Under the pieces are notes generated by a model. That model had not been told where the DNA came from. It saw only the letters and a program-made list of their open reading frames with translations, and did not search any database. 64,000 bases of DNA, taken from NCBI RefSeq assembly GCF_014189855.1, contig NZ_BJFN01000006.1, positions 62,001 through 126,000 of the forward strand, in the 5' to 3' direction. This document shows, piece by piece, positions 48,471 through 63,980 of the stretch. The translations under genes and the position numbers were made by a program. How positions within the stretch are numbered: the stretch's first letter is position 1; each line of letters begins with the position of its first letter. This DNA comes from Buttiauxella sp. A111 (lineage in GTDB: Bacteria; Pseudomonadota; Gammaproteobacteria; Enterobacterales; Enterobacteriaceae).

Positions 48471-49345
48471 TGAACAGCCTGGTACAGGGTACTCAAACCC
48501 GCGCTTTGGAATGTGTTGCAGAGAAATTTGTCGTCGATTTTGCAAAAAATAGGGGGGTTACACGTGAGTTGTGGCACAGCCAGCAAAGCAAAGCGTATTT
48601 CCAACGGCTGACCGGCGAGTTTATTGGCAGCAGCCAGTTGCAAAAATGGGCGGTGGACGATGTGTTACTCGAGACGCCTGAATTCACGTTAGCGATGCTC
48701 GGGCAGCTCTGCCAACGTGTGGTGAAAAAACATCGGGCGATGACGAAAGTCTATGACAGCGTCTGTTCTATGTCCGCCGCTTCTGCGCGAATGAATAACG
48801 AGGCCCTGGAAACTCGACAGCTGTTTGCTCTCGTGCAACAGCAACTGGCGCTGCGCATTGGCAAGCTGGAGGCGCAACTAAACGGCACCGATCTCACGCA
48901 TCTGGGGATCGTGCATTGCGAGCAAGTTTTTGCCCGCTGGCAGGCTGGACACTATTTATCATTTTCGCCCGCTGGACGCTGTTATGTCGCGTTGCAGGAG
49001 CTGTACTGGGGCACTTTTGGCGATGCGCTGCGTTTCGGCAGCACGTTACAGGCAAGTGAGCTGATAGAACAGGCGCGAGCGTTGGCCATCAGGCAGCTGG
49101 CGCAAGATGTGAATGCCTCCGCTCGCACTCGTCATTACTATTATGAATGGCTGATGTTTCCGTCTACGCCTTCAATGATGGAAAGCAAAGACGCGCTGAC
49201 ATGGCTGGGTGACGATTGTGACCGCGAGTATCAGCCGGTGAGTTTTGCTACCACCCAAACGCATTTGGGAGTTTCTCTCGGCATGCCACGCATTTGTTCC
49301 GCAATGCGTCTGGGAAGTGCGATGGTCGATGAGGTGTTTATCTGA
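48470..49345 (+). CDS. yjcZ: CrfC partner protein YjcZ
   Basis: 291 residues, close to the 292 of E. coli YjcZ. It is soluble and largely helical, with LVQGTQTRALECVAEKFVVD at the start and the conserved WGTFGDALRFGSTLQASELI near 180. Its ATG overlaps the crfC stop. The function is poorly known; over-expression studies in E. coli link it to motility, and co-occurrence with CrfC suggests a shared role. A frame that starts at 48386 inside crfC is rejected. Confidence 0.9.
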   Translation: MNSLVQGTQTRALECVAEKFVVDFAKNRGVTRELWHSQQSKAYFQRLTGEFIGSSQLQKWAVDDVLLETPEFTLAMLGQLCQRVVKKHRAMTKVYDSVCSMSAASARMNNEALETRQLFALVQQQLALRIGKLEAQLNGTDLTHLGIVHCEQVFARWQAGHYLSFSPAGRCYVALQELYWGTFGDALRFGSTLQASELIEQARALAIRQLAQDVNASARTRHYYYEWLMFPSTPSMMESKDALTWLGDDCDREYQPVSFATTQTHLGVSLGMPRICSAMRLGSAMVDEVFI

Positions 49346-49493
49346 TGATCTCAGGATTGAATATGCGGCAAAATATCTGAAGACATTTCCTACACATGTC
49401 ATCAAGAATATGATCGATATCATATTAAGCAGGATTAATTTAAATGAAAGGTAATGAACTGAATAAATAGAAGCCATTTTCTTTGCTGGGTTG

Positions 49494-49504
49494 TACACAG
49501 TGTA
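49494..49504. promoter_or_regulatory. Small palindrome upstream of evgA
   Basis: TACAC-A-GTGTA within TTGTACACAGTGTAAAT resembles the inner part of the EvgA consensus (TACA-GT-TGTA) but with one extra base. It lies 120 bp before evgA. It could be an autoregulatory site; the match is weak. Confidence 0.25.
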
Positions 49505-49623
49505 AATATTTAAGGACACCTTTTCCTGGTATATCTAAATGTCATCCACCCCTGAATCCTCTCTAAAAAGTAATAATATAGCTAACTTCGCTATTTTTTA
49601 TTACATCAGGATTTCTTAACGCA

Positions 49624-50238
49624 ATGAACGCGATAATCGTTGACGATCATCCATTGGCGCGGATCGCCATTCGCAATTTACTCGATACTAATGGCATCAC
49701 CGTCATCACTGAGCTCGATAGCGGCGAACATGCGGTGCAAACCACGGAGAGGCTCAAACCGGATCTGCTGATAATCGATGTTGATATCCCCTGCATTAGC
49801 GGCATTGAGGTGCTGGAACAATTACGCAAACGCCATTTCGCGGGCTTTATCATTATCATCTCGGCCAAAAACGAACTGTTTTATGGCAAGCGTAGCGCAG
49901 AGTGTGGCGCGAATGGGTTTGTCAGTAAAAAAGAGGGGATGAACAATATTCTCGCCGCCATCGACGCGGCAAAGAATGGTTATAGCTATTTCCCTTTCTC
50001 TCTTGAACGTTTTATTGGTACCAGCATTACTGAGCAAGACAAACTGGATACGTTATCGACCCAGGAAATGAAGGTGCTGCGTTATATTCTCAATGGCATT
50101 GATTACACCACCATCGCCAGCAAAATGAATATCAGTAATAAAACGGTGAGCACGTATAAAACCCGCTTAATGGAAAAACTAGATTGCTCCTCATTGATGG
50201 AACTCTACGATTATGCGCAAAGAAATAAAATAGGGTAA
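49624..50238 (+). CDS. evgA: Response regulator EvgA
   Basis: 204 residues, the E. coli length. The receiver domain has IVDDHP at 5-10 and phosphoacceptor Asp52 in LIIDVDIP, the same residue number as in E. coli. The C-terminal LuxR/NarL-type helix-turn-helix reads IASKMNISNKTVSTYKTRLM near 163. EvgA activates acid-resistance and efflux genes, including yfdX and the gad/hde set, in E. coli. It is followed after 4 bp by evgS, so they form one operon, and its target genes lie just downstream. Confidence 0.95.
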   Translation: MNAIIVDDHPLARIAIRNLLDTNGITVITELDSGEHAVQTTERLKPDLLIIDVDIPCISGIEVLEQLRKRHFAGFIIIISAKNELFYGKRSAECGANGFVSKKEGMNNILAAIDAAKNGYSYFPFSLERFIGTSITEQDKLDTLSTQEMKVLRYILNGIDYTTIASKMNISNKTVSTYKTRLMEKLDCSSLMELYDYAQRNKIG

Positions 50239-50242
50239 TGAG

Positions 50243-53200
50243 ATGCTGGCTCGTTTGTTTATTTATTTGATGATTGTTTTTGGCTTGAGCAGTTTTTCCA
50301 CCTTTGGCGCGACACAAGTTATTGAGCTTAAAAGTAACTACCAGCCCGCAGTGCTGGATATTCGTTTAAACCCGGAAGAACGGTTTTGGCTGGAGCACAA
50401 AAAAAACCTCACTGTCGGTACCTGGTTGCCGGAAGTTTCCCCTATCGATTATGAAAGTACCGGGGGAATTTATCAGGGAGTGAATGCCGATTACCTGGCC
50501 CTGATGCAAAAAAATCTGCATATTAAAATTACTATTAAACAGTACGATAGCGAGAAAGAAGCCCTTGCGGCGCTTTCGAGGCACGAAGTCGATACGCTGC
50601 TCACTCAGCTGTCTGTCCACAAAGATGTGGGAAGCGCTCTGTTGACGACTTCGGCGTTGATCAAAACCTGGCCGACGCTTGTGACTTCGCTCAAAAATAC
50701 CTTGCTGCCGCTAAAAACGGATAAGGAAGTGACCCTTGCCTGCGTGCAGGATTGCGCATTTTCCAGTGTCGCCAAAGAAGCCTTCCCTAACGCCAGAATG
50801 GCCTTTTACGATGATGACTATCAGGCATTGTCATCGGTGCGGGACGGTAAAAATCAATATTTTATAGGTAATAACGTAACCACCGGGAATTATATTTCTA
50901 AATACTTCTCGCAATCGCTGGTTATAACTCACTACTTCAACAAGCAAGAGCAATACAATTACTTTATCACCAGTAAGAACCAGCCGTTGTTGCGAAATAT
51001 CCTCGAAGCTTTCATTACTTCTATTAGTAATGAAACGCATATGCGGATGATGCAGAACTGGTTGAATCGCGGCAATCTTTCCTACCTGAATTCACCTATT
51101 CCGTTCAGTAAGGAAGAGCAGGAATGGCTTAAAAAACATCGTAATATTAAGGTGTTGATTAACCCTAACTATCCACCGTTTACGCTTATCGACCAGGGTG
51201 GCGAGCTACGCGGCATCATGGCTGATTTACTCAATATTATTCAGCTACAAACCGGGCTTGAATTTCAGCCGGTGATGGTTAATTCCGGCAACAAAATGGC
51301 ACCAGACCAATGGGACATGATCCCCGCCGCTACGCTAAATAATGCGCCGCAGAAATTCATCTCGTTTAGCGATTCGCTGATGAGTATCTCGTATGTGATT
51401 GTCACTCCACACCAGGAAAACGCCGACCTGTTGCTCACAAAACCCCTGCGCATTGCCGTCGCCGCGGGGACTATTTTGACCAACGATTTACATCAACGTT
51501 ATCCGCAGGCGACCCTGGTTGAAACGGAAAACATCGTTGAGGCAATGAAAATGGTGGAGAAGGGCGAGGTCGATGCGGCGATTACGAGCGAGCTATCCGC
51601 CCGCTACATGATTGATCATTATTATCTGCAAAAAATGTACTACATGCGGCTACCCGGAATGCCGAGCGCCTCGCTGAGGTTTGCGATGGCGCGCGATGAA
51701 CCAGAACTGAACGCCATTATGAGTAAGGCGCTGCAAGCGATTCCTCCACGCGATATTCTGCAAATGACGGAGAAGTGGTCGAAAATTTCTAGCGTACAGA
51801 AAGACACCTGGAGCCTTTATAGCAAGCAGTTTTATCAGCTGGTGTTCTTCGCGTTAGTGCTGATTGCCATTAGCCTGGGATGGGGGTTATCGCTTTCGCG
51901 TGAGGTGCGCAAAAGAAAACAGTCACAACGGCAACTCGAAGAAGAATTGCAGCTTAAAGAGGCGCTCTCACATGAGCTGGAGGCTGAAAAAGATAAAGCG
52001 ATTCAAGCCACGAAAGCGAAAAGTCGATTCCTTGCGAGTATGAGCCACGAACTGCGTACTCCGGTGAGTTCGATTGTTGGTTTTTTAGAGCTGCTGTCGA
52101 GTTCGGATCTCAACGCCGCTCAGCGCAAAGAGGCGATAGCGCTTGCCGCGGCTACTGCACAATCGCTGCTGGGGTTGATCGGGAAGATCCTGGACGTTGA
52201 TAAGATTGAGTCCGGCAAATACCAGATTGCCCCACAATGGACGGATTTGTCGCAGCTTATCGACGTTCAGTGCCACTCTTTTGACGCACTGGCCAGACAG
52301 AAAGGCGTAGAGCTGCGTTTTAGCAGTCATCTTGCGGCGGATGATCGTGTGCTGATTGACCCGCAAGCCTGGAGGCAAATTCTCAACAATCTGGTCGGCA
52401 ATGCGCTGAAGTTTACCGAGCAAGGGCATGTAGAGGTTTCTTGCCGTCTGACACCCGGTGAGGATAAACATGGGACTTTGACCGTGACGGTTAGCGATAC
52501 CGGCTGCGGGATCAGTACGGAAGAACAGAAGACATTATTCCACCGTTATGTTCAGGCAGGTCAGGGGCGTAAACATATCGGATCTGGGCTGGGGCTGGTT
52601 ATCACCAAAGAGTTGGTGACGCTGATGGGCGGCACGCTGGAACTCAGTAGCCAGCAGTCGCAAGGTTCCACTTTCACCATTACGCTTGCGGTTGAAATCG
52701 CACAGCAAACCCGTACCCCGATGAAGAATACTCCAGCCGCTTTGTCGCCACTGCCTCGTTTGTCGATTTTGATTGCTGACGATAACCCGACGAATCGACT
52801 GCTGCTAAAACGCCAGTTGAATGCCATTGGCTACAACGTGGATGAAGCCTGTGACGGCGAGGAGGCTGAAGCCAAAATCGCCCACAAGCAGTACGATTTG
52901 TTGATAACTGACCTGAACATGCCGAAAAAAGATGGCCTCGCGCTGACGGCATCTTTACGTCGCAAGAATGTGCGGCTGCAAATCTGGGGACTTACCGCCA
53001 GTGCACTTTCGCAGTCACGCGAGCAATGCCTGCAAAGTGGGATGAATCAGTGCCTGTTTAAACCGATTTCGATTCAAACGTTGACTCATGAGCTGAGTAA
53101 ACTCGATATGGGGCGTGCGTCCTCTGGCAACACGCGACATTTGAAACTGAGTATTCTGACTGAGAACACCGGTGGTGACAGGACGTTGATGAACGAGATT

Positions 53201-53473
53201 CTGGAAACGTTCCGCGAAGCGTCGGCCAATGATTTGCAAGTCGCCGTGCGCTCAATTGAGCAGGATGAACCTAAGATGTTTTTGCACGCGTTACACCGTT
53301 TGCATGGCTCGGCACAGATTCTGGAAATCACAGCGCTTCAGGCGTTGTGTGAACCTTTCGAATCACGCCGACATGATGCGATACCGCTTGAGGAACGTAA
53401 GGAAACGCTTGAGAAAATTTCTGCGGTGATGCGGGAAATCGACATTGAGATAGACAGTTTGATAAGCCACTAG
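50243..53473 (+). CDS. evgS: Tripartite sensor kinase EvgS lacking the PAS domain
   Basis: 1,076 residues, about 120 fewer than E. coli EvgS (1,197). Order: signal peptide, two periplasmic Venus-flytrap (SBP_bac_3) domains at about 45-275 and 288-515, membrane helix at about 529-550, then a charged coiled coil (QSQRQLEEELQLKEALSHEL) running straight into HisKA (His602 in SMSHELRTPVSS). HATPase follows (NLVGNALKF, HIGSGLGLVI), then receiver (Asp890 in LLITDLNMPKKDG) and HPt (His1018 in HALHRLHGSAQI). The E. coli protein has a PAS domain between membrane helix and HisKA; no such segment fits in the roughly 50 residues here. Each phosphorelay residue is intact. Confidence 0.93.
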   Translation: MLARLFIYLMIVFGLSSFSTFGATQVIELKSNYQPAVLDIRLNPEERFWLEHKKNLTVGTWLPEVSPIDYESTGGIYQGVNADYLALMQKNLHIKITIKQYDSEKEALAALSRHEVDTLLTQLSVHKDVGSALLTTSALIKTWPTLVTSLKNTLLPLKTDKEVTLACVQDCAFSSVAKEAFPNARMAFYDDDYQALSSVRDGKNQYFIGNNVTTGNYISKYFSQSLVITHYFNKQEQYNYFITSKNQPLLRNILEAFITSISNETHMRMMQNWLNRGNLSYLNSPIPFSKEEQEWLKKHRNIKVLINPNYPPFTLIDQGGELRGIMADLLNIIQLQTGLEFQPVMVNSGNKMAPDQWDMIPAATLNNAPQKFISFSDSLMSISYVIVTPHQENADLLLTKPLRIAVAAGTILTNDLHQRYPQATLVETENIVEAMKMVEKGEVDAAITSELSARYMIDHYYLQKMYYMRLPGMPSASLRFAMARDEPELNAIMSKALQAIPPRDILQMTEKWSKISSVQKDTWSLYSKQFYQLVFFALVLIAISLGWGLSLSREVRKRKQSQRQLEEELQLKEALSHELEAEKDKAIQATKAKSRFLASMSHELRTPVSSIVGFLELLSSSDLNAAQRKEAIALAAATAQSLLGLIGKILDVDKIESGKYQIAPQWTDLSQLIDVQCHSFDALARQKGVELRFSSHLAADDRVLIDPQAWRQILNNLVGNALKFTEQGHVEVSCRLTPGEDKHGTLTVTVSDTGCGISTEEQKTLFHRYVQAGQGRKHIGSGLGLVITKELVTLMGGTLELSSQQSQGSTFTITLAVEIAQQTRTPMKNTPAALSPLPRLSILIADDNPTNRLLLKRQLNAIGYNVDEACDGEEAEAKIAHKQYDLLITDLNMPKKDGLALTASLRRKNVRLQIWGLTASALSQSREQCLQSGMNQCLFKPISIQTLTHELSKLDMGRASSGNTRHLKLSILTENTGGDRTLMNEILETFREASANDLQVAVRSIEQDEPKMFLHALHRLHGSAQILEITALQALCEPFESRRHDAIPLEERKETLEKISAVMREIDIEIDSLISH

Positions 53474-53510
53474 AAAAGCGGGTTACCGCTTAGGCTAATC
53501 CTTCCCATAA

Positions 53511-53590
53511 CGGCATCCGACCTACGAGACGATAATGCAAACGCAGCTTTCGTAGGTCGGATTAGCGAAGCGACATCCGACATTCAAGAC
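53511..53590. repeat. REP/BIME-like inverted repeat pair
   Basis: CGGCATCCGACCTACGAGAC and, 20 bp on, CGTAGGTCGGATTAGCGAAG then CGACATCCGAC form an inverted pair of REP-type palindromes. It lies between the convergent evgS and yfdX ends and may act as terminator and mRNA stabiliser for both. Confidence 0.75.
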
Positions 53591-53619
53591 GAAAATCACT
53601 TCGGCAATGTTAACGCTGC

Positions 53620-54252
53620 TTAGTTGGTTGCAGCGAACATTTCGCTATCCACTACGATACCGTCTTCAGCACCTTTCAGTACCAAATTAGCCTCGTAGTA
53701 TTTGCCGTCTGCCAACAGTTTTTGAGCCTGAGCCACCGCTTTACGGGTTTGGTTCAGTGGCATCAAATATTGATTTTCCATTACGCCAATACCCGCCAGA
53801 CGTAAGGTATCCATTGCCCCTTTTTTATCGCCTTTTGCCAGTTTTTCATTGGCAGACTTGATGGCGCTCTCTTTGGCCGGTGACGCAATATAGTCTTCAG
53901 ATAAGGTGACATTGGCATTAATGATGACGTATTGATCGTCAATCATCTTCGCTTTGGAATCGGTTTTGACAAATTTCTTCCAGTCCACGCTGTCATCTTT
54001 AAGCAGCGTCGCCGCGTCATCAGTCAGTTTTTTAGCCGTGGCGGGTTCGCCGTGAAACAGTGCCAGTCGTGCGAATTGGATATCACGCATGGCATTCGCG
54101 CCCTGTACGGCAACCTGCATCACGTCAGCAGCTTCTTTTTGGATTTGTGCGGTTGCAGCAGCGGTTTGCGCTGGAGTCGCTGTTGTTGCAGCAAATACCG
54201 GTGCAGAACTCATCATGGTTGCCAGTACACCAGCCAGAATTAATTTTTTCAT
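53620..54252 (-). CDS. yfdX: Acid-stress periplasmic protein YfdX
   Basis: 210 residues from the ATG at 54252 (E. coli 211). It has a signal peptide ([20 protein letters not shown], cut near FAA), then an all-helical YfdX domain with [20 protein letters not shown] near 40 and [20 protein letters not shown] near 153. In E. coli yfdX is one of the strongest EvgA targets. Here it is immediately beside evgS and divergent from hdeD, which supports membership of the same regulon. The exact function in acid stress is not settled. Confidence 0.92.
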
Positions 54253-54354
54253 TATCTTCTCCTCAATAAAATGGGTGTTAATCACCAACGGAGCCAGAAT
54301 AGAAAATAACGCTAAGGATGAAAATCAGAGCGCAGAATGAATATTGCAGGAGCC

Positions 54355-54393
54355 ATCTGACGCTTGTCAGATTGCTGAGACAGACGTCAGATT
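54355..54393. promoter_or_regulatory. Candidate operator between yfdX and hdeD
   Basis: A perfect 7-4-7 dyad ATCTGAC-GCTT-GTCAGAT (54355-54372) is followed by a second GTCAGATT at 54386, exactly 20 bp after the first GTCAGATT at 54366, i.e. about two helical turns. It lies 103 bp upstream of yfdX and 90 bp upstream of hdeD, so one factor could control both. EvgA is the obvious candidate by context, although the word differs from the E. coli EvgA consensus. Confidence 0.5.
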
Positions 54394-54482
54394 GGGCGTA
54401 TAGCAATGGGGCTTCACTCTTATTTACCTCGTCGGGTAACTGGTTTTACTATTTTAAGTATCAACTACAGGGTGGATATCAA

Positions 54483-55085
54483 ATGTTCATATTTAACCAA
54501 TTTAGAGTGAAAGCGCTTAGTGAAGCTTCACGTCTTCAATATAAAAGACATGCCATGGTTATGGCAGTGCTTCTATATCTATGCGGTGCTTGCTGTCTTA
54601 TTTTCCCCTTTATGGCTGGGATGTACCTCTGCTATATCATTGGCATGCTGTTTATGGTCTGCGGTTTTTACACTCTTTATAGCCTGGTGGTTTTTCGTTC
54701 CCAGCACTGGCGCTCTAAATTTGTCAGCGCGGTGTTTGCCATAGCCTGGTTATTGTTGGGCTACAGCTTCGTCTCTCATCCGCTGGTTGGAATGAATTCG
54801 TTATCAATAGTATTTTGCTGCTTGTTTATTGTCGGTGGGGTTTCACGCATCGTGTCAGGGTTCACTATGCGAGGCCACGTAGGCGCTATCCCGAACATTT
54901 TTATCGGTATTTTTGATCTGCTGATTGCGATTATCTGGCTAGGGATGACGCCTGAACAATCGTATCTCTTTACGACCGCATTTATTGGCATTGAGATGAT
55001 TTTCAGCGCAGTGAGTTTTCTCATTTTGCGCAAGAAATTGACGACTGCTCCGCAGATTAAACAAGCTTTTTCAAATTCACAATAA
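54483..55085 (+). CDS. hdeD: HdeD-family acid-resistance membrane protein
   Basis: 200 residues from the ATG at 54483 with GGTGG upstream; the frame to 54318 runs through the operator region and is rejected. It has six membrane helices in three pairs, the DUF308 layout of HdeD (MAVLLYLCGACCLIFPFMAG, then WLLLGYSFVSHPLVGMNSLS and FIGIFDLLIAIIWLGMTPEQ). In E. coli HdeD gives acid resistance at high cell density. It is first in hdeD-hdeB-gadB-gadC. Confidence 0.88.
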   Translation: MFIFNQFRVKALSEASRLQYKRHAMVMAVLLYLCGACCLIFPFMAGMYLCYIIGMLFMVCGFYTLYSLVVFRSQHWRSKFVSAVFAIAWLLLGYSFVSHPLVGMNSLSIVFCCLFIVGGVSRIVSGFTMRGHVGAIPNIFIGIFDLLIAIIWLGMTPEQSYLFTTAFIGIEMIFSAVSFLILRKKLTTAPQIKQAFSNSQ

Positions 55086-55100
55086 ACACTGGATTAACTT

Positions 55101-55403
55101 ATGAAGAATAAAGTATTTATTTCGTTAATTGTTTCTGCTGCCGCTTTATCTGGCTCAATGAATAGTGCTTTCGCTGCTCAAGAAACGACGCCGCAGAATA
55201 TGACCTGTCAGGAGTTTATAAACATGAACCCAAAATATATGACGCCAGTCGCCTTTTGGGTGGTGAATAAAGATACCGACTTTAAAGGTGGTGATTATGT
55301 CCACTGGCAGGAAGTTGAAACCGTATCGGTACCAAGAATTTATAAACAGTGTCAAAAAACACCTAAAGCAAAATTGGGTGAACTGACTCATAGCGTTAAG
55401 TAA
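55101..55403 (+). CDS. hdeB: Periplasmic acid chaperone HdeB
   Basis: 100 residues with a signal peptide (MKNKVFISLIVSAAALSGSM, cut near AFA-A). The mature part has the HdeB signature NMTCQEFINMNPKYMTPVAF near 33-52 and a second cysteine in IYKQCQKTP near 84, giving the single disulfide of HdeA/HdeB. It resembles HdeB rather than HdeA (MTCQEF-x-N/L-NPK-MTPVA-W). It binds unfolded periplasmic proteins at low pH. It lies 15 bp after hdeD and no separate hdeA is present. Confidence 0.9.
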   Translation: MKNKVFISLIVSAAALSGSMNSAFAAQETTPQNMTCQEFINMNPKYMTPVAFWVVNKDTDFKGGDYVHWQEVETVSVPRIYKQCQKTPKAKLGELTHSVK

Positions 55404-55461
55404 ATCTACACTCACGATTAATTGAACTGTTAAATGAAATGAGACCAATAGAGGAGTTATT

Positions 55462-56859
55462 ATGATCATATCAACTCAGTCTGTCGAAGATGAAAATGAC
55501 GATATTTATGCATCCGTAGAGTTATTGGCACCGCTACCTAAAACCGCATTTCCGGTAAAAGAAAGTAATCCACGTAATGTTTTTCATGCCATTCATGATG
55601 AACTGATGCTGGACGGCAACTCCCGCCAAAATCTGGCGACCTTTTGCCAGACCTGGGTTGATGATGAGATCCGCCAGTTAATGGATCTCTCCATCGACAA
55701 AAACATGATTGATAAAGATGAGTATCCGCAAACCGCTGAAATTGAGCAGCGTTGCGTGAATATGCTCGCCGACCTTTGGCATTCCCCGTCAGCAACCGAC
55801 ACGATGGGTTGCTCAACGATAGGTTCTTCAGAAGCCGCAATGCTTGGCGGCCTGGCGATGAAATGGCGTTGGCGTAAACGCCGTGAACTGGCCGGGAAAT
55901 CGACTGATAAACCGAATTTGATTTGCGGCCCGGTACAGATTTGTTGGCACAAATTCGCCCGCTACTTTGACGTTGAGTTACGTGAAATTCCACTGGAAGG
56001 CGATCGCCTGATGATGACCGCCGAAGAAGTGCTTAAATATGCGGATGAAAACACTATCGGTGTCGTGCCAACGTTGGGCATTACCTTTACCTGCCAGTAC
56101 GAGCCGGTAAAAGAAATTAATGATGCGCTGGATGATTTGTCCGCGAAGACCGGGATTGATATTCCCATTCACGTCGATGGTGCCAGTGGGGGTTTCCTTG
56201 CTCCGTTCTGCGCACCGGAAATCGAATGGGACTTTCGTCTGCCACGTGTGAAATCCATTAATGCTTCCGGCCACAAATTCGGCCTTGCACCACTGGGTGC
56301 CGGTTGGGTGGTATGGCGTGAAAAACAGGATCTGCCAGAGGATTTGGTCTTCAACGTTAATTACCTCGGCGGCAATATGCCGACCTTTGCGCTGAACTTC
56401 TCGCGTCCTGGTGGGCAAATTGTCGCTCAGTATTACAACTTCCTGCGTCTGGGCTGTGAAGGCTACCGTAAAATTCATATGGCTTGTTACCACACTGCGC
56501 AGTATCTGGCGCGTGAGATTGCCGCTATTGGCCCATTCGAGGTTATTTATGACGGTAATCAACAACATGGTATCCCTGGGCTGACATGGACGTTAAAAGC
56601 GGACCACCAGAATTGTGGCTACACGCTTTACGACCTTGCCGACCGCCTGCGTAGCCGCGGCTGGCAGGTGCCAGCTTATTCCATGCCAACTCACCGCGAA
56701 GACTTAGTGGTGCAGCGAATTCTGGTTCGCCATGGTATGAGTACCGATTTGGCCGAATTGCTGATTGCTGATCTGAAACGCACCCTTGCAACGCTTGAGC
56801 AAAATCCTGTCACACGTCCGCTGACCATCGAGGAAGCGGGTGGCTTCAACCACGCATAA
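55462..56859 (+). CDS. gadB: Glutamate decarboxylase
   Basis: 465 residues. PLP-dependent group II decarboxylase with the cofactor lysine at Lys272 in [13 protein letters not shown] and the substrate-site stretch [20 protein letters not shown] near 115. It converts glutamate plus a proton to GABA and CO2 in acid stress. The tail GGFNHA keeps the penultimate histidine used for pH-dependent closure of the active site in E. coli GadB (FKHT). Sequence between motifs differs widely from E. coli GadA/B, so it is a distinct lineage. RBS GAGGAG precedes the ATG. Confidence 0.94.
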
Positions 56860-56887
56860 AACCCTTTCTTATCAGTATCAATCATTC

Positions 56888-56913
56888 AGAGAGCCTGTCG
56901 ATTTCGGCTCTCT
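56888..56913 (+). terminator. Intercistronic hairpin between gadB and gadC
   Basis: Eight-bp perfect stem AGAGAGCC / GGCTCTCT with a 10-base loop, followed by TCCATAATTTTG. It lies 28 bp past gadB. The weak T-run suggests partial termination or a processing/stability signal that would lower gadC relative to gadB. Confidence 0.55.
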
Positions 56914-56971
56914 TCCATAATTTTGTATGAGCATCAATAGGTTATTCATGCCTGAAGATGTGGAGAGGCTT

Positions 56972-58492
56972 ATGTCCAGTACAACGACGAGCGGCCCTAC
57001 AAGATCGCTCACTTTGCTCGGCTTTTTCGCCATTACCGCCTCTATGGTGATGGCAGTTTATGAATATCCAACGTTTGCTACCTCAGGTTTTAGCCTGATT
57101 TTCTTTCTCCTGATGGGCGGTATTTTCTGGTTTATCCCCGTGGGACTGTGTGCCGCAGAAATGGCGACCGTAGAAGGCTGGCAAGAAGGCGGCCTCTACG
57201 CCTGGGTTTCTAATACGCTCGGGGAGCGCTGGGGATTTGCAGCGATCTCCTTTAGCTATTTGCAAATCGCCATCGGTTTTATCCCGATGCTTTACTTTGT
57301 GCTTGGTGCACTCTCTTACATTCTCAGTTGGCCTGCGTTAAACACCGATCCGCTGGTGAGAACAGTGGCTTCCATCGTTATTTTGTGGGGGCTGGCGCTG
57401 ACTCAATTCAAAGGGACGCGCTATACCGCGATAATTGCCAAACTCGGCTTCTTCTTTGGGATTTTATTCCCGGCAATTGTGTTGGTGGGGTTGGCGGTGG
57501 CCTGGCTTTATCACGGGCAGCCGCTGGCCATTGAGATGTCGGCGAAAACCTTCTTCCCTGATTTTTCCCAGATTGGCACATTAGTGGTGTTTGTGGCGTT
57601 TGTGCTCAGTTACATGGGCGTTGAAGCCTCGGCAACCCACGTTAATGAAATGACAAACCCAGCCCGCGATTATCCTCTGGCGATGTTCCTGCTGGTGATT
57701 GCCGCCATTGTGTTGAGCTCCATTGGTGGCCTGTCCGTCGCAGCGGTGATCCCGCACAATGAAATCAACCTTTCTGCGGGCGTTATGCAGGCGTTCAGCA
57801 CCTTGATAAATTATTACGGACCTGAATATGAGTGGGCGGTTCGCGTGATAGCTGCATTGTTAATGCTGGGGGTATTGGCAGAAATCGCGTCGTGGATTGT
57901 AGGCCCTTCCCGCGGCATGTTAGTGACGGCACAAGACGGTTTATTGCCTTCACGCTTCGCCAAAGTGAACAAAAATGGTGTCCCAGTAGCACTGGTGATT
58001 TCCCAATTAACCATCACAACCATCGCATTGATTGTTCTCACCAATACCGGTGGCGGTAGCAATATGTCATTCCTGATTGCGCTGTCACTCACCGTGGTTA
58101 TTTACCTGTGCAGCTACCTGATGCTGTTTCTGGGATATATCCAGTTGGTTCGCCATCAGCGTGATAGAACGCGTGCCTTCCAGATCCCCGGAGGGAAGTC
58201 GGTGAAGCTGGCTATCGCCTGTTCAGGTCTGCTGGTTTCAGTATTGGCGTTTGTGGTTTCGTTTATTCCACCGAGCTCTCTGCCTGGCACCCATGCCCAT
58301 GATATCTATGCCGGCTTGCTGGTAATCTGCTTCGGTCTGGTATTTATTCTGCCGTTTATCGTTTATATGTTCCGCGACCATTCACGAATAAGGCACGCGC
58401 CGCATATCGTCCCTGTGACCGTTGATAACGCGCCGACAGGCCATTTTGCGATTCACCCGAAAGCCCGTCCGTCACATTATCCAAAGCCATAA
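56972..58492 (+). CDS. gadC: Glutamate/GABA antiporter GadC
   Basis: 506 residues from the ATG at 56972, which has GGAGAGG four bases upstream; the frame extends to 56927 but with weaker signals. It is an APC-superfamily antiporter with 12 helices and conserved [20 protein letters not shown] at the start and [20 protein letters not shown] near 214. The C-terminal plug [15 protein letters not shown] corresponds to the pH-sensitive plug that blocks E. coli GadC at neutral pH. It exchanges external glutamate for GABA made by GadB. Confidence 0.95.
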
Positions 58493-58591
58493 ATTAAATG
58501 TTGTGCCATCTGCTCAACCGCAAAGTGTGGATGGCACTCTCGCGAGTTTATTTTTAGGGAAGGGGAGGGGCGTCCATCACATCACTACACT

Positions 58592-58639
58592 TTCAAATAA
58601 GACATCGAACGAACGGGATAGTATTGGCACATCTGCTTT
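58592..58639 (-). pseudogene. Relic of a DUF4150/PAAR-like effector gene
   Basis: Minus-strand bases translate as KADVPILSRSFDVLFE. The matching part of the Tle3 effector reads RAETEWISHSFDVFFE: half of the positions are identical and most others conservative, and 14 bases (AAGACATCGAACGA on the plus strand) are identical. No open gene surrounds it; a stop follows soon after. I read it as the decayed end of another DUF4150 gene. The rest of 58493-58717 shows nothing else. Confidence 0.4.
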
Positions 58640-58717: not shown

Positions 58718-59395
58718 TCATGATGATGGCGGTAATCCTAAATCCGGGTCGCAGCGCATTTTGTCCCAACCGGTGTAGTTTTTAACTTCGGGGACTTTGT
58801 TGGGGATGTTCTGGAAATTCTTTCGATTAGCATCAATAGTCCAGGATTCAGGGCCGGCAAAAGAATTCCAGGATGCATACTCTTTACCCCATTTCCCCCC
58901 TTGTCCTGATTCAGGATCTACAGCATCAAACGGTTTTGAACTCATGTAGATATCACCGGTTTTTGTCAGCATAAAGCCCTGGTCGTTGACTACGGTGAAA
59001 GACTCGATTTCATCGCGATGAGGTTGATCATCTGCATATCTAACGGCACCGCCACCAGGGGAGAAACTTGCTCCATCCCAGGTGCGTCCATAATCTTTTG
59101 AAATAGAAAAACCATCACCCTCAAATGAGGTTATGGCGATATAGCGCTCCGAGGGGTGGATAAATTTTTTAGTGAATATCCTGTAGCCATCAGATACATC
59201 GTAAATCTGATATCGGATGTTTAATGTTGTATCGATGTAACGTAGCCCTCCCTGGCAGTTAAATCCTGTCAGCTCCAGGTAACGATGGTCATCAAAGCGG
59301 TAAACCACCTGCGTTGGCGGTGTTTTCGGTGCTGAATGACAACCGCTAATCAGACTAATGCCAAGTACAATTAACACTTTTTTAAATGGTTTCAT
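58718..59395 (-). CDS. Tli3-like lipoprotein, immunity to the Tle3 effector
   Basis: 225 residues from the ATG at 59395 (AAGGAAACG upstream). It has a lipoprotein signal MKPFKKVLIVLGISLISGCH with the lipobox ISGC, so it should be tethered in the periplasm. The body holds QVVYRFDDHRYLELTGFNCQ near 30 and an ITSFEGDGFSISKDYGRTWD segment near 86 that looks like a beta-propeller blade or sialidase-type turn. It lies 13 bp behind the Tle3 effector gene and matches the immunity lipoproteins found with Tle3. Protection is inferred from position and family. Confidence 0.8.
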   Translation of the reverse strand: MKPFKKVLIVLGISLISGCHSAPKTPPTQVVYRFDDHRYLELTGFNCQGGLRYIDTTLNIRYQIYDVSDGYRIFTKKFIHPSERYIAITSFEGDGFSISKDYGRTWDGASFSPGGGAVRYADDQPHRDEIESFTVVNDQGFMLTKTGDIYMSSKPFDAVDPESGQGGKWGKEYASWNSFAGPESWTIDANRKNFQNIPNKVPEVKNYTGWDKMRCDPDLGLPPSS

Positions 59396-59408
59396 TAACG
59401 TTTCCTTG

Positions 59409-61931
59409 TCAGACCTGTGGTTTTGGCATATCCCACTGAAGAATACCCGCCGTCTGGTTTTCCGTATCACGCTTGTTTCCTGGTATCACTTTCTGGCGTG
59501 AACCGTAATCATTGACTACCCCGAAGTGGCCTAATGGCATGCCATTAGGTCGCTCTGGCTTATTCATAAATTGTTTGATACGCCCAAAAGGTAAAATACC
59601 TTCCTGGTAGTACGTTTTTACACCTTCAATCGGATTGTCAGGCCTGCGCCAGTCTGCCTGCAATAACAATCGATTCCAGAAATCCTTATTCTCAAAAGAT
59701 TTATTCTGCCCGATAGCCATGTCATAAACTGTTGCCTTTGTCGAAACCTCTTTATTGGTCACGATGGAAGAGTGCTGGCTATACTCAGAGGGATTATCCG
59801 TTATCACTTTATTCAACTCTGCCTCCGTCATTCGCCGCCAGACAATCAGCAACTGAAAAGAGTCCCGGTTGCCGGATACGTTACCTTTTAATATTTCCCA
59901 CGGTGAATACCTGATATTTAATTCGTTCAACTGAGCCTGGCCCAGCGCAGAGCCATCGGCCAGAAGATAAAATTGCGGGGTGTCGGGGACATGAATAGTT
60001 TCAGAAATTAATCTTTCTGCTTTCATGGCGGCTTTGGCAATTTTGGGGTCATTGCCGCTTAATTCAGCTTTATAACCCTTTCCCTGGCCCATCAGTTTAA
60101 ATGTAAAAGGGGCCGGGAGAAGCGGGGCGTTGATGGTGACGTCGGTAAAGTCGTAACCCGTATTTTTAGAGTCGTCCGGTTTGTGTGCAGGCATTACATA
60201 ATGAAAACCTGTTCTATCGCCAATCCGTATGTCTTTGCAAAAAGCGCGTTGGCAAAGGTTATTGCCCAGTTGTGCTTTGATTTCGTCCGGAATACCTCTC
60301 CAGCCAAATCCCTGAATGGGTGACATGGACACCACCTGGTCGTTAGGGCAGAAATAATTGTAAACCCGGCCAAAATTGTTGCGGTTATAAAGTGGATTTT
60401 TCCAGAGGGTTAGCTGTGCTTGTTGAGGCAGACAGCCTGTATCCGTTATTTTCTGAATATAGGCCGCGTTATGAGAAAGTGAGCCCTGCGGCGCGAGTGG
60501 GTTTTTTGCCATCAGATTACAAAAATGGGCAAAGGTCTTTTTTCGGGCGTCGCTGGTTTGTTGGTTACCGGGCATGGCGTTTTCCAGCCAGCGGTTTTCC
60601 AGCGCATAAGGCGAATGGTTCAGGATGGCACAATCTGCCGGAGGGAAACCTTCGGCCTCAACCCACATATTCGCCAGCATAGTGATAATGGTGCCCTGGC
60701 TGTGGGCGACGATATTAATCGTGTCATTTTGAGTTTTCTCATTGCGGCGGATATCCAGGATCAAATCCGCCAGCCTTCGCGCGGCATAAGCCTGGTAAAT
60801 GCGATGCGGGTTCTGGTAAATCGGGTGGCTCCAGTCGTGGCTGTTGAATACTTCAGTACGTGACATCAGCTTGGCAATCATGGCCAGTATCACCCCTGCG
60901 GCTCCCGGCCCGAACATATCGGGAATATTGGTGGTCGCATTGGCGAATGTTCCTCCGCCTTTGGAGGATACAGAGTCTAACCAGTTATACAGGTTGTCGA
61001 TGTTTTCATTGTTGTGCGCTGCAATATTATCTGCGTCATCTTCGCGGTAGGTATCGTAGGCTAGGTCAGCTTCATTGCCTTTTTTCTCTGGTTTGAGTTC
61101 GTCTTTGTAGCGTAGCTGGTCTTGTTTAAAAACATCGTGATCGACCGGTTTATACCCCCAGTAAAAAGGGATCACTGGTGAAAGGGCAACGTTACCGCCT
61201 ACATCTGTAATCATGAATTTGTCAGCGTCCCAGCGGTGATGCTGTATATCTTTGCGCCCCAGCCGTTCATTTAGCCCGGCACAAATGCCTTCATCCTGGG
61301 TCTGATAGGCCTCACCCACATCGTTCACACCATGCACCAGAATCACGATACAGGGCATGGCCTGTGGTGGGTCATCATCTGTTGGAGGGGGAGTTGAGTC
61401 ATTCTTGTCGGACGATGGGGGTGTTGACGCATTTTCATCAGACCGCGGGGCTGGTGGTGGTGCGGACTGCTTCCCGTCTTCTGACCCGGAACTGGCGGAT
61501 GAATTATCTGGCAGTTCTGGCACTGGTGGTAGTGGGGCCTGCATAAGACCTGCCATATTCACCGTGTTCCCATGATTCATAAGTAGTTTGTCAGTCAAAC
61601 GACACGCTGGTTTCTTCTCAAAAAAGACATCGAACGAGTGGGATATCCATTCTGTTTCAGCCCTGTTGGTTCCCGAAATGACCCCGCCCATACTTCCCGG
61701 CTCATCAAAAACGCTACGAGCAAACTGTGAGCCCATATTGGCAATCATGTTGCCGCCATCCGCAGACACACTGACTGTCCCTTTGACCAGGTCTGCCGAA
61801 TAGGCTTCATTCTCATAGGGGATGGGGATGGCGAAAGGTGGCGTTTTACAGACATCGGGCAATGTGTTGTGGCTGACGCCCTCACTTCCTTTATGGCAGA
61901 GCGTAATTCCATTGATATTAATTGTCAGCAT
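59409..61931 (-). CDS. Type VI effector: DUF4150 (PAAR-like) fused to Tle3 phospholipase
   Basis: 840 residues. Residues about 1-130 form a DUF4150 PAAR-like domain (CHKGSEGVSHNTLPDVCKTP, PIPYENEAYSADLVKGT, GTNRAETEWISHSFDVFFEK) that would cap the VgrG spike. A Pro/Ser/Asp-rich linker spans about 132-195. The alpha/beta hydrolase domain starts CIVILVHGVNDVGEAYQTQD near 196 and has nucleophile Ser411 in NIVAHSQGTIITM. A C-terminal DUF3274-like region follows. Tle3 enzymes hydrolyse phospholipids of rival cells. The start overlaps the upstream gene end by 14 bp, and an immunity lipoprotein gene follows. Confidence 0.87.
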   Translation of the reverse strand: MLTININGITLCHKGSEGVSHNTLPDVCKTPPFAIPIPYENEAYSADLVKGTVSVSADGGNMIANMGSQFARSVFDEPGSMGGVISGTNRAETEWISHSFDVFFEKKPACRLTDKLLMNHGNTVNMAGLMQAPLPPVPELPDNSSASSGSEDGKQSAPPPAPRSDENASTPPSSDKNDSTPPPTDDDPPQAMPCIVILVHGVNDVGEAYQTQDEGICAGLNERLGRKDIQHHRWDADKFMITDVGGNVALSPVIPFYWGYKPVDHDVFKQDQLRYKDELKPEKKGNEADLAYDTYREDDADNIAAHNNENIDNLYNWLDSVSSKGGGTFANATTNIPDMFGPGAAGVILAMIAKLMSRTEVFNSHDWSHPIYQNPHRIYQAYAARRLADLILDIRRNEKTQNDTINIVAHSQGTIITMLANMWVEAEGFPPADCAILNHSPYALENRWLENAMPGNQQTSDARKKTFAHFCNLMAKNPLAPQGSLSHNAAYIQKITDTGCLPQQAQLTLWKNPLYNRNNFGRVYNYFCPNDQVVSMSPIQGFGWRGIPDEIKAQLGNNLCQRAFCKDIRIGDRTGFHYVMPAHKPDDSKNTGYDFTDVTINAPLLPAPFTFKLMGQGKGYKAELSGNDPKIAKAAMKAERLISETIHVPDTPQFYLLADGSALGQAQLNELNIRYSPWEILKGNVSGNRDSFQLLIVWRRMTEAELNKVITDNPSEYSQHSSIVTNKEVSTKATVYDMAIGQNKSFENKDFWNRLLLQADWRRPDNPIEGVKTYYQEGILPFGRIKQFMNKPERPNGMPLGHFGVVNDYGSRQKVIPGNKRDTENQTAGILQWDMPKPQV

Positions 61932-62958
61932 GCTGGCTTCCTTGAGTTTTTGACATGACTACCGCGCCACGCCGCCCGTCATCCGACGTGGAAAGTAGTA
62001 GCGTATTGCTGGGGTGTTCTGATGAGCGCATTCGCCATGCAGTCAGCGCCATGTGTGCCACCAGACTGGCGCATCCCAGATCGCCTGATGCCAGTACGGG
62101 CGTTTCTCGTATGAGCCCTTCACCGTTATAACGATGCATTGCGAACAGGGTAAAACCCAGTTCGTCTGCGCGGTAAGGCTCACCGTTAATATCGCTCACG
62201 AGATGGTGTAATTCGGTTATGTTTGCCGCCTCAAGCGCCAGTGATGCGGCCTGACGCAACCCTTTTCCGTGACAGACGCCTTTGTCTGAATACAACACAT
62301 CTTCAATAGATTGCCCGCTACCCCGGATGTGGCACCATGGCTTGCATCCTGTGCCAGGAGATGCCAGCACCAGTGCAGCCGCGCCCTCGGAAGGTACCCG
62401 TCCATAAGGATTGACTATCTTGTTTTCCTGAAATGTTCGGTGAGCATTGTGGAGTAAGTTTTCACCGTCCAGCCACTGCAGAGAGGGCGCTAACAGCCAT
62501 GATTCGACGGCGAGCAGCACGAAGGACGCTGCTTCCGTTGCCAAATCCATCATGCCGACAGCCTCGGCACTTCCACCGTGCAGAACATGAACCGGGGTGT
62601 CGTACCAGCCGGTAATTTCCTTCACTGCTTCTTTTACCGCTGCGGTCAGTTCAGGGGTGATGCCTGGCCTGTCCAGAGGTGGAAGCAAAATAGATACCCG
62701 ACCAGGGGGAGGGTGCTTCAGTGCTGGTTGGTTATTTATTAGTTCCGTCAGCACTTGCCAGAGTAACTGCCGAAAACGTTCAACCAGGGAGACCGAAACT
62801 ATTTCTGGGAAATAGCAGGCTCTTATCGGTGAGCCACGCTGATCCACATAAATCGGGTGCTTTCTTATCAGAGAAAACTGAAGGCGGTGAGCAACGGCGG
62901 CCAACGGGAGTGTTGGCCCGGAAGGGAAGATACAGGCGGCTGCGACAATAGCTTTCAC
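61918..62958 (-). CDS. Ketoacyl-synthase-like protein without catalytic cysteine, type VI accessory
   Basis: 346 residues from a GTG at 62958 whose GTGA overlaps the DUF2169 stop; GGGAGG lies seven bases upstream. The thiolase-type fold is recognisable from NPYGRVPSEGAAALVLASPG near 186, like the GEGAAALVLE motif of ketoacyl synthases, and ELHHLVSDINGEPYRADELG near 245. Where these enzymes have TACASG, this protein reads VLHGGSAEAVGMM, with no cysteine. It is probably a binding or loading factor, not an enzyme. Such genes recur between DUF2169 and DUF4150 effector genes in type VI loci. Confidence 0.72.
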   Translation of the reverse strand: MKAIVAAACIFPSGPTLPLAAVAHRLQFSLIRKHPIYVDQRGSPIRACYFPEIVSVSLVERFRQLLWQVLTELINNQPALKHPPPGRVSILLPPLDRPGITPELTAAVKEAVKEITGWYDTPVHVLHGGSAEAVGMMDLATEAASFVLLAVESWLLAPSLQWLDGENLLHNAHRTFQENKIVNPYGRVPSEGAAALVLASPGTGCKPWCHIRGSGQSIEDVLYSDKGVCHGKGLRQAASLALEAANITELHHLVSDINGEPYRADELGFTLFAMHRYNGEGLIRETPVLASGDLGCASLVAHMALTAWRMRSSEHPSNTLLLSTSDDGRRGAVVMSKTQGSQHADN

Positions 62959-63980
62959 AGTAATGCCTCCCATTCTGGAAACTGCACAGGAAGGGCTTTC
63001 GTTTTGACAGACAGAAGAGGCTTTTCCGACACTGTGGTGGACTCAAGCTGATTAACCAGATGATGGCAAGGAAGTGCGCTATGCCAGACCATGCTAACGC
63101 GAGGAAAATCAGGTTCGATAATGACCGTGTGGAGCGTAGCCTGGTGGAGGCGAATCCTTCCATCATAAAACTGGGTGCTGAAGGCGGGGACAAGACGCGG
63201 GAGGGCAAAGATAAGCAGCCCATTGTGGCCATAGTCGGATGGTGTGAGATTTCCCAGACTGACGACCTCACCGCCTTTCAGTCGCCCACCTGCATACATT
63301 GGCGGCGGTGTACATTGCCAGTAACGTTCATCCAGGTCGTCCGGCAGCAATGGCGCACGGTGGCGTTGCCAGTTTTCGTCATATGTCCCAGCAAACTGAG
63401 AGCGGCCCGGCCATTGCCGCGGCACAGCACCAAACCCTGGCATAGTTTCGTCGCCATAAAATTCAATATTAGGCAGGGCTGATAGCCCCTTTTCAGGAGT
63501 CGCAGTGACAGAGATTCCCACAGGATTAACATCACTCATGCAAGTCGGGATACAGCTTCCCCGACTCATGTTGCTATAATTGAGAGGTATTTTGTTAAAG
63601 GGAACTGGATGACTGTACTGCTTGCCGTCCCAAATCCGTTCGCCATAAGCACGGGCAAGCCGGGTAACATTTCCGACTTTGAGCCCTATGGGCAGAGTGC
63701 GGAACGCTTTTCCATTTGGAGAATGAACGTGCCCGTTGAGTACGACATCGGTGGCTGTCTTGGTTGGGCCAAAGTCCGTGTCATAAAGTAATGTCTTGCC
63801 ATCATCCTGAAATACCGGCCCGGTATTGGGCTGTAGCTGAATGGCAGACAGTACAGTTATACCACCAGGCAATATATCCCAGGTGGCTTTTAGCGCAATG
63901 GTCCAGATTTCTTCTCCCTGCCTGCTTCTTATCCAGCTTCCCTTTACAGCATAGGGCGTCTGATTTTTTACTTGCCACAT
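62955..63980 (-). CDS. DUF2169 type VI secretion accessory protein
   Basis: 341 residues, complete, with GGAGCAG before the ATG. It starts MWQVKNQTPYAVKGSWIRSR and has the DUF2169 stretches LKATWDILPGGITVLSAIQL, LYDTDFGPTKTATDVVLNGH and RVSMVWHSALPCHHLVNQLE. DUF2169 proteins are encoded beside PAAR/DUF4150 effectors and are thought to act as adaptors for loading onto the VgrG spike. It is first in the visible part of the minus-strand operon DUF2169 - KS-like - Tle3 - Tli3; the gene before it lies outside the window. Confidence 0.85.
   Translation of the reverse strand: MWQVKNQTPYAVKGSWIRSRQGEEIWTIALKATWDILPGGITVLSAIQLQPNTGPVFQDDGKTLLYDTDFGPTKTATDVVLNGHVHSPNGKAFRTLPIGLKVGNVTRLARAYGERIWDGKQYSHPVPFNKIPLNYSNMSRGSCIPTCMSDVNPVGISVTATPEKGLSALPNIEFYGDETMPGFGAVPRQWPGRSQFAGTYDENWQRHRAPLLPDDLDERYWQCTPPPMYAGGRLKGGEVVSLGNLTPSDYGHNGLLIFALPRLVPAFSTQFYDGRIRLHQATLHTVIIEPDFPRVSMVWHSALPCHHLVNQLESTTVSEKPLLSVKTKALPVQFPEWEALL

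Follow-up and report, generated by a model that had tools for sequence, protein, structure and literature searches.

A standard example of layered stress circuits in bacteria is the acid network of Escherichia coli K-12, made up of EvgAS, YdeO, and GadE together with GadX and GadW. In this strain, oxalate genes stand between evgS and yfdX (evgAS-yfdE-yfdV-oxc-frc-yfdX), hdeD/hdeB and gadBC lie elsewhere, and an acid fitness island running from slp to gadA holds HdeB, HdeD, and glutamate decarboxylase. Both hdeD/hdeB and gadBC of K-12 are listed as GadE dependent (PMC4222967). A more compact arrangement is already published: the kvhAS-yfdX-hdeDB locus of Klebsiella pneumoniae CG43 consists of an evgAS-type pair and a yfdX gene divergent from hdeD-hdeB, and AR2 genes are reported to be lacking in three Klebsiella strains (PMC6394985).

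Here, we describe a block of seven genes, evgA, evgS, yfdX, hdeD, hdeB, gadB, and gadC, in a 64-kb stretch of Buttiauxella DNA (the window). All seven lie within positions 49624 to 58492 (Table 1), their K-12 counterparts occupy three separate places, and the block itself contains no gadE, gadX, gadW, or ydeO, as a sequence-only reading of the window had claimed. We consider it likely that this is a compact acid resistance locus that relies on a single regulator step in place of the E. coli cascade, with EvgA probably controlling the block directly and bypassing YdeO and GadE.

Table 1. Features of the block and its surroundings, in window coordinates
Feature	Position	Strand	Evidence
yjcZ (rdcB in the K-12 record)	48473-49345		
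Weak EvgA-type site upstream of evgA	49388-49403	+	2 mismatches to TCYKACANNTGTMRGA; 22/500 shuffles as high
evgA, LuxR-type response regulator	49624-50238	+	NCBIfam EvgA equivalog, 372 bits (cutoff, 251); 69% identity to K-12
evgS-type hybrid kinase without PAS domain	50243-53473	+	1,076 aa; two SBP_bac_3 stretches, HisKA, HATPase_c, receiver, Hpt
Inverted repeat, 13-bp arms, evgS/yfdX gap	53515-53562		Sequence
yfdX	53620-54252	-	Pfam YfdX; NCBIfam PRK10316, 325 (256); 59% identity to K-12
EvgA-type palindrome TCTGACGCTTGTCAGA, yfdX/hdeD gap (candidate site)	54356-54371		1 mismatch to consensus; 3/500 shuffles as high
Second GTCAGATTG copy, 20 bp past first	54386-54394		Possible degenerate second EvgA site
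hdeD, first gene of presumed operon	54483-55085	+	NCBIfam HdeD, narrowly, 190.4 (189); 34% identity to K-12
hdeB, periplasmic acid chaperone family	55101-55403	+	Pfam HdeA/HdeB family; NCBIfam HdeB equivalog, 129 (124); 43% identity to K-12
gadB, glutamate decarboxylase	55462-56859	+	TIGR01788, 649 (380); 61% identity to K-12
gadC, glutamate/GABA antiporter	56927-58492	+	TIGR00910, 788 (674); 70% identity to K-12
Hairpin 3' of gadC, possible terminator	58503-58537		Sequence

The block follows the Klebsiella order from the evgA- and evgS-type genes through the divergent yfdX to hdeD and hdeB. A sensor without a PAS domain and a palindrome at the same place are also present in the K. pneumoniae locus L055 and in L100, which closely resembles it; unlike the block, both lack gadBC, and Klebsiella has an additional HdeB-like gene (24% identity) upstream of the regulator. 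With K-12, the block has in common EvgA, YfdX, and EvgA-type palindromes. Two loci from other genera (L159 and L161) represent a bridging form, in which the oxalate genes are kept and hdeD-hdeB come after yfdX. In contrast to the acid fitness island, the block is devoid of gadE, gadX, gadW, mdtEF, slp, and hdeA; its HdeB scores 26 bits against the NCBIfam HdeA model, for which the cutoff is 85. This hdeB is the sole PF06411 match in the genome at an E value of ≤0.001, and gadB is likewise the sole match at ≤1e-100. Both GadB and GadC exceed their equivalog cutoffs as members of AR2, GadB has the penultimate His seen in K-12, and the C-terminal segment of GadC resembles that of K-12; glutamate-dependent survival at low pH is predicted. 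The inverted repeat between evgS and yfdX is one that we take to resemble a REP element.

The sensor differs from its K-12 counterpart in a way that the sequence-only reading did not note. It scores 965 bits against the NCBIfam EvgS equivalog, below the cutoff of 1995, and is 38% and 49% identical to K-12 EvgS over two stretches. Two periplasmic binding-protein-like domains, HisKA, the ATPase, the receiver, and Hpt are all kept, and the alignment columns of the K-12 relay residues H721, D1009, and H1137 hold H, D, and H. However, a domain search returned no PAS match, and the alignment places 8 residues where K-12 EvgS, a protein of 1,197 amino acids with a PAS domain, has 121 (positions 580 to 700), so the cytoplasmic PAS domain, including C671 and C683, is missing. 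In a tree of EvgS proteins (39 rows, 37 of them different), sensors of this PAS-less type are common to a clade of relatives; L139 and L160 were left out as short and L042 as a near-copy of L099, and L138 and L171 have no EvgS frame of at least 700 amino acids. A structure model of the sensor is of low confidence (mean pLDDT of 66, pTM of 0.33, and values below 50 over residues 545 to 605); it has helices at 517 to 554 and 565 to 598 with no PAS fold between them, and the argument for PAS loss is independent of it.

The PAS domain of K-12 EvgS is held to be its redox switch. Because the Buttiauxella sensor has no such domain, a redox gate placed there cannot operate likewise, and aeration may matter less for the response. 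The literature on aeration is itself divided, in that K-12 EvgS is described as shut down without air (PMC8174306), whereas evgA-dependent induction of ydeO without air has been stated elsewhere, from data not displayed in that paper (PMC4222967). Residues H226 and P522 of EvgS are reported to be needed for acid induction (PMC5573083); the sensor has Q and S in these columns, and Q at 226 also occurs in PAS-containing EvgS relatives of genus g126.

The DNA-binding part of EvgA includes a stretch, ISNKTVSTYK, that is identical to that of K-12. Evidence for its candidate binding site in the yfdX/hdeD gap comes from position. A matrix built from four K-12 sites only (upstream of evgA, frc, yfdX, and safA) was applied to the yfdX-hdeD region in 7 of the 15 enterobacterial loci analyzed, and it picked out the window palindrome and, in all seven, the corresponding place, with 0 to 3 of 500 shuffles scoring as high in each; the offset is +104 in the window and +99 to +105 in these relatives. 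A genome-wide count of the palindrome was rejected as evidence, as 3 places match with at most one mismatch compared with 11 for a reversed control pattern; the palindrome is not enriched, and location alone therefore counts. Citrobacter loci have a second EvgA-type site 18 bp past the first, and six of seven have a zero-mismatch site upstream of evgA, where the weak site in the window possibly serves evgA autoregulation.

Work in Klebsiella CG43S3 suggests another activator for this region, because deletion of rcsB reduces the activity of the yfdX, hdeDB, and hdeB1 promoters at pH 4.4 and the DNA between yfdX and hdeDB is a binding target of RcsB (PMC6394985). RcsB might then be the main activator, with EvgAS only a neighbor or helper. 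The RcsB element given in PMC6394985, however, has no match with two or fewer mismatches in window positions 54253 to 54482, and its 52 matches in the whole 64-kb window compare with a shuffle mean of 40.6 (5 of 100 shuffles reach 52), while the EvgA palindrome in the region is conserved. We regard a leading role for RcsB as unlikely, although RcsB and EvgA may act together.

The genes hdeD, hdeB, gadB, and gadC, which are separated by gaps of 15, 58, and 67 bp, are presumed from this layout to form one operon. Across hdeD, hdeB, and gadB, up to where gadC begins, the plus strand has no terminator-like hit, and the matrix scan of the window found no EvgA site on either side of gadB, in its gaps to hdeB and gadC. 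Two promoter-like hits fall across the gadB start, and a separate gadB promoter is therefore possible, with such hits numbering 12 in the region, no more than in shuffles (mean, 14.0). The terminator scan did not pick up the hairpin beyond gadC, and similar sequence is found at the right edge of other Buttiauxella genomes with or without the block.

Direct control by EvgA would be called into question by intermediate regulators encoded elsewhere, which the sequence-only reading had proposed to look for. No GadE match was found in the window's genome, whereas 3/3 Escherichia-type controls match at 94 to 99%, and a scan for an assumed form of the GadE box gave no match anywhere in the window. 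Nor is there a strong match to YdeO, GadX, or GadW, the best E value being 4.3e-14 in this genome, whereas two Escherichia-type genomes reach 2.5e-115 or lower. An unrecognized intermediate, such as a distant AraC-type regulator elsewhere, could nevertheless stand between EvgA and gadBC, in the role that YdeO and GadE have in K-12. At ≤0.001, the YdeO/GadX/GadW profile has 20 matches in the genome; three reach 1e-12 or lower, and most cover the C-terminal DNA-binding part. Much stronger AraC-type matches occur in genomes with evgA-linked gadBC, including G177 as well as G319 and G126 (1e-47 and 5e-46, respectively), and those in Buttiauxella genomes G019 and G165 are of medium strength (2e-24 and 4e-23). 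An intermediate regulator is thus possible in G319, G126, G019, and G165. Against such an intermediate in the window's genome stand the gap in E values, the failure to find GadE, and the position of gadBC in a presumed operon behind an EvgA-type site with only hdeD and hdeB between, and we judge it very unlikely there. Among the 17 genomes with both EvgA and GadB, G177 alone has a clear GadE, which lies next to a second gadB accompanied by hdeA and hdeB; in G061, GadE also occurs together with the evgAS core, but the locus there lacks gadBC.

The gene order recurs in related genomes, a comparison that the sequence-only reading had suggested. Of 49 loci found, 34 are distant response regulators (23 to 42% identity) and lie outside the analysis; the remaining 15 enterobacterial loci all have the evgAS-yfdX-hdeD core, which is accompanied by hdeB in 13 and followed by gadBC in 7. 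Of the Buttiauxella type strains with the block, B. noackiae is one, and B. agrestis is another, in which hdeB is lacking. EvgA and GadB are both present in 17 of the 392 family genomes searched, EvgA being counted at an E value of ≤1e-60, a threshold that takes in distant paralogues. In 12 of these 17, gadBC lies within 10 kb of evgA (4.5 to 8.8 kb away), and this linkage occurs in six of nine genera and at least four arrangements; among the five unlinked genomes, G106, G287, and G348 have only distant EvgA paralogues, at 49 to 54% identity. The linked gadBC of g126, g78, g41, and g35 stand in gene orders unlike that of the block, and EvgS has a PAS domain in the first three, unlike in the block, and is PAS-less in g35. 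Four g126 genomes carry gadBC on the strand opposite evgAS, with palindromes of zero or one mismatch about 190 to 200 bp upstream of gadB (0/500 shuffles as high in each). Near gadB, L157 has a weak EvgA-type site (34/500 shuffles as high), and none was found in L165 and L167 (271 and 158 of 500). In a tree of the fetched GadB genes, from which eight rows were left out as copies (one being K-12 gadA) and in which L203 was assumed to be a copy of L204, all 11 evgA-linked rows lie outside the five-row group that holds the K-12-type copies. Among open-license papers, we found none describing gadBC joined to evgAS; the arrangements dealt with in PMC6250119 are those of glsA and gadBC.

The chromosomal setting bears on how the block arose. 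It starts directly after yjcZ, as the sequence-only reading had noted, and such direct contact with evgA was observed in the window alone: about 3.6 to 6.3 kb of other genes intervene in L042, L043, L044, and L046, and yjcZ was not found within 7 and 10 kb upstream in L045 and L047, respectively. The suggestion that the block was inserted as a unit finds partial support, since evgA and gadB are absent from two of the six Buttiauxella genomes although the neighbors are kept, a pattern in which gain and loss are indistinguishable. Its argument from a displaced proP fails, because the conserved right-hand neighbor in Buttiauxella, also present in the two block-less genomes, is a different gene, which we take to be DMT-transporter-like. 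No proP match was found across 80 kb of the window's own contig (L127 to L130), of which 60 kb lies beyond the window. Recent import was also considered, and megablast of positions 49345 to 58600 against plasmids and complete E. coli genomes returned no match. The spot between yjcZ and the right-hand neighbor holds PTS-type genes, the block, or T6SS genes in different Buttiauxella genomes, and acid genes could have gathered at so variable a place by coincidence, without shared control. Given that the evgA-gadBC linkage recurs across genera in differing arrangements and that the yfdX/hdeD site holds its offset, we find this scarcely credible.

Under direct EvgA control, mild acid, the presumed signal, would activate EvgS, which by homology would phosphorylate EvgA through the relay. 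EvgA would then bind the palindrome and switch on the two divergent units, one being yfdX and the other hdeD-hdeB-gadB-gadC as a single transcript, making YdeO and GadE unnecessary. In keeping with the established functions of their families, HdeB, YfdX, and HdeD would protect the periplasm and membrane, GadB would use up protons by decarboxylating glutamate, and GadC would swap glutamate for GABA.

We tentatively propose, at somewhat less than even confidence, that the PAS-losing EvgS lineage made EvgAS a sensor read mainly from the periplasm, with chaperones and, for some members, also the glutamate pump under its one-step control. If this is true, direct EvgA control of gadBC would be widespread outside Escherichia, with the EvgA-YdeO-GadE cascade a special case, and cells carrying the window's locus would be expected to show glutamate acid resistance even in the absence of air, a condition under which K-12 EvgS is reportedly shut down. 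Because PAS-less sensors are natural deletions of the presumed redox-gating part, what EvgS senses, and where, becomes addressable by comparing natural proteins. Should gadBC commonly be under direct EvgA control elsewhere, the layering of this circuit would be a local elaboration, and natural one-step versions would be available for comparison.

The gene set that had been read from the sequence alone as one compact block (evgAS, yfdX and hdeD-hdeB-gadB-gadC) is present as described, as evidenced by gene calls and by domain and family-model matches. The window's genome comprises 4.89 Mb in 37 contigs, and the closest named EvgA proteins are from Buttiauxella (91 to 93% identity), which points to that genus. 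The gap sizes within the block suggest that hdeD-hdeB-gadB-gadC is one operon, transcribed away from yfdX.

Features of the block, the window, and related loci (window coordinates unless a genome or contig stretch is named; G000 is the window's genome, L011, L128, and L131 are contig stretches)
Feature	Location	Remark
evgS-yfdX gap		146 bp
yfdX-hdeD gap		230 bp
hdeD-hdeB gap		15 bp
hdeB-gadB gap		58 bp
gadB-gadC gap		67 bp
EvgA-type palindrome	54356 (start)	between yfdX and hdeD
T6SS genes downstream of block	58718-63980; L128:1582-3546	Tle3-type phospholipase with PAAR-like domain; Tli3-type immunity protein; VgrG-like protein
Tle1-like phospholipase-type protein	43411-44625	close relatives in Buttiauxella genomes G019, G250, and G317
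Presumed formate-dehydrogenase-like gene	15371-17584	residue 162 of the frame as read is an in-frame TGA, likely a selenocysteine codon
Protein with autotransporter beta-domain	26511-28694	
Second EvgA/EvgS-like pair	G000:C2:302595-303203; L131:4369-8213	EvgA 44%, EvgS about 30%; adjacent genes presumably fimbria-like
K-12 gadBC	L011:2955-6046	GadC 70% to the window's

The main proposal of the sequence-only reading, that EvgA may control hdeD-hdeB-gadB-gadC directly, without YdeO and GadE, appears strengthened from several sides by sequence comparison, namely, the lack of a GadE match, a site between yfdX and hdeD, and the linkage of gadBC to evgA. Some results do not fit: strong AraC-type matches in three genomes with the same linkage, and two loci lacking a site near gadB. 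Cross-talk from the second EvgA/EvgS-like pair is possible.

Seventeen genomes carry both EvgA (E ≤ 1e-60) and GadB (E ≤ 1e-100), and in 12 of them, from 6 of 9 genera, gadBC lie 4.5 to 8.8 kb from evgA. The arrangements differ: gadBC follow hdeD and hdeB in Buttiauxella (without hdeB in B. agrestis G019) and in Citrobacter sp. FP75 (G319), yfdX in genome G173, and evgS, on the same strand, in genomes G337 and G177; in genus g126 they are encoded on the other strand from evgAS, near hdeB and adi genes. Among the five unlinked genomes, a close EvgA (66 to 67%) is present in G056 and G119, with gadB on a different contig or 42 kb away; the EvgA relatives in G106, G287, and G348 are all distant ones, 23 to 45 kb from gadB. 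In a GadB tree, the 11 evgA-linked rows all lie outside the five-row group with the K-12-type copies (support, 100) but do not form a single clade, and 10 of 35 inner branches are open. Five other loci (L212, L215, L217, L219, and L220) encode GadC proteins of only 29 to 33% to the window's, beside GadB copies of 57 to 65% identity; because K-12 GadC is far closer, the K-12 gadB-gadC pair may be of mixed origins.

In K-12, the regulatory chain is reported to run from EvgAS through YdeO to GadE (PMC4222967). A look for gadE and ydeO elsewhere in the window's genome bore out what had been read from the block: two GadE searches, covering 18 and 20 genomes, gave no match there, and the best match to a YdeO/GadX/GadW profile (E = 4.3e-14) lies mainly over the DNA-binding part. 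GadE was matched in 4 of the 18 genomes (best, 46 to 53%), including G061, whose core locus lacks gadBC, and in 5 of the 20, including all three Escherichia-type genomes (94 to 99%). The larger search included all 17 EvgA- and GadB-bearing genomes, of which only G177 has a clear GadE; one copy there is grouped with hdeA, hdeB, and a second gadB (L212; 57% identity to the window's copy), away from the evgA-linked gadBC. G337 gave a single marginal match (4e-4, 21%). Counting against direct EvgA control, the YdeO/GadX/GadW profile reaches about 1e-46 to 1e-48 in G319, G126, and G177, all with evgA-linked gadBC, and about 1e-24 and 1e-23 in the Buttiauxella genomes G019 and G165 (B. noackiae).

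Alignment of yfdX-hdeD and evgA upstream regions yielded the palindrome TCYKACANNTGTMRGA, which K-12 also carries, with 0 to 1 mismatch, ahead of evgA, frc, yfdX, and safA. To keep the test noncircular, a scoring matrix was built from these four K-12 sites alone and compared with 500 dinucleotide shuffles. The top position in the window's yfdX-hdeD region is 54356 (3/500 shuffles as high), and in all seven relatives tested it is the corresponding one (+99 to +105; 0 to 3/500). The window's hdeB-gadB and gadB-gadC gaps gave no site (228 and 345 of 500). In four g126 genomes, the region upstream of gadB scored 0/500 each; near gadB, locus L157 was weak (34/500), and loci L165 and L167 had no site (271 and 158 of 500). 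Genome-wide, the palindrome is not enriched (3 places, one of them 54356, versus 11 for a reversed control pattern).

Positions 580 to 700 of K-12 EvgS (121 residues) align with just 8 residues in the window's EvgS; the alignment shows a clean seam, with the PAS domain gone. In K-12, the reported redox control involves C671 and C683, both located in this domain, and EvgS is reported to shut down without air (PMC8174306); a contrasting report mentions evgA-dependent ydeO induction without air, as data not shown (PMC4222967). H226 and P522, reported as required for acid induction (PMC5573083), align with Q and S in the window's EvgS, of which Q at 226 is also found in PAS-containing relatives; the relay residues are conserved. 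In a quick, midpoint-rooted tree with SH-aLRT support, the PAS domain is missing from all 17 rows (15 different) of a clade containing Buttiauxella, Citrobacter, Klebsiella, Erwinia, and G173 (support, 99), next to the PAS-containing E. coli group, and the simplest reading is a single loss in this clade. A separate second PAS-less group comprises 10 distant relatives. The predicted structure of the window's EvgS was of low confidence and was left out of the argument.

The same gene order was partly recovered in related genera. An EvgA search of named genomes, which overlap the genomes searched elsewhere (e.g., G019/L046, G374/L043 of B. massiliensis, and G319/L054), gave 49 loci, of which 15 with EvgA identity of at least 75% were analyzed. 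evgA-evgS-yfdX-hdeD is present in all 15 and hdeB in 13, and gadBC follow directly in 7 (Citrobacter sp. FP75 plus six Buttiauxella loci); in the six remaining Citrobacter loci, mdtF and mdtE take that place. The two loci in which no hdeB turned up are L046 (B. agrestis, with the same result for its counterpart G019) and L049 (Citrobacter sp. On2M); as the remaining unit is intact, HdeB seems dispensable there. K-12 also has evgAS and yfdX in one locus, but with four oxalate genes in between. Loci L159 and L161, from two other genera, combine this arrangement (evgS with PAS, yfdE-yfdV-oxc-frc, and yfdX) with hdeD-hdeB directly after yfdX, linking the E. coli form to the Klebsiella/Buttiauxella form. 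The window and K-12 orders therefore appear to be versions of a single older locus, with any direction of change being an inference.

Six Buttiauxella genomes were compared at the chromosomal spot; evgA and gadB were matched in four of them but in neither G250 nor G317. In G250, the right-hand neighbor gene comes about 0.5 kb after yjcZ; in G317, what we take to be a PTS/glucosidase-like set lies in between; in G019, that presumed set precedes the block, and the same neighbor follows. In the window's genome, about 33 kb including T6SS genes separate the block from this gene. A right-edge hairpin sequence is common to G317, which lacks the block, G019, and G374, and the window has a similar one; neither an integrase nor long repeats were noticed at the block ends in the course of the comparison and an inverted-repeat scan. 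The block is therefore accessory, a unit at a chromosomal spot that varies; as to its proposed insertion as a unit, gain and loss both fit.

The shared core is ordinary and already known, its Klebsiella form being published as kvhAS-yfdX-hdeDB (PMC6394985). Its linkage to gadBC, the lack of a GadE match, and a sensor without PAS together set this locus apart as a new variant.
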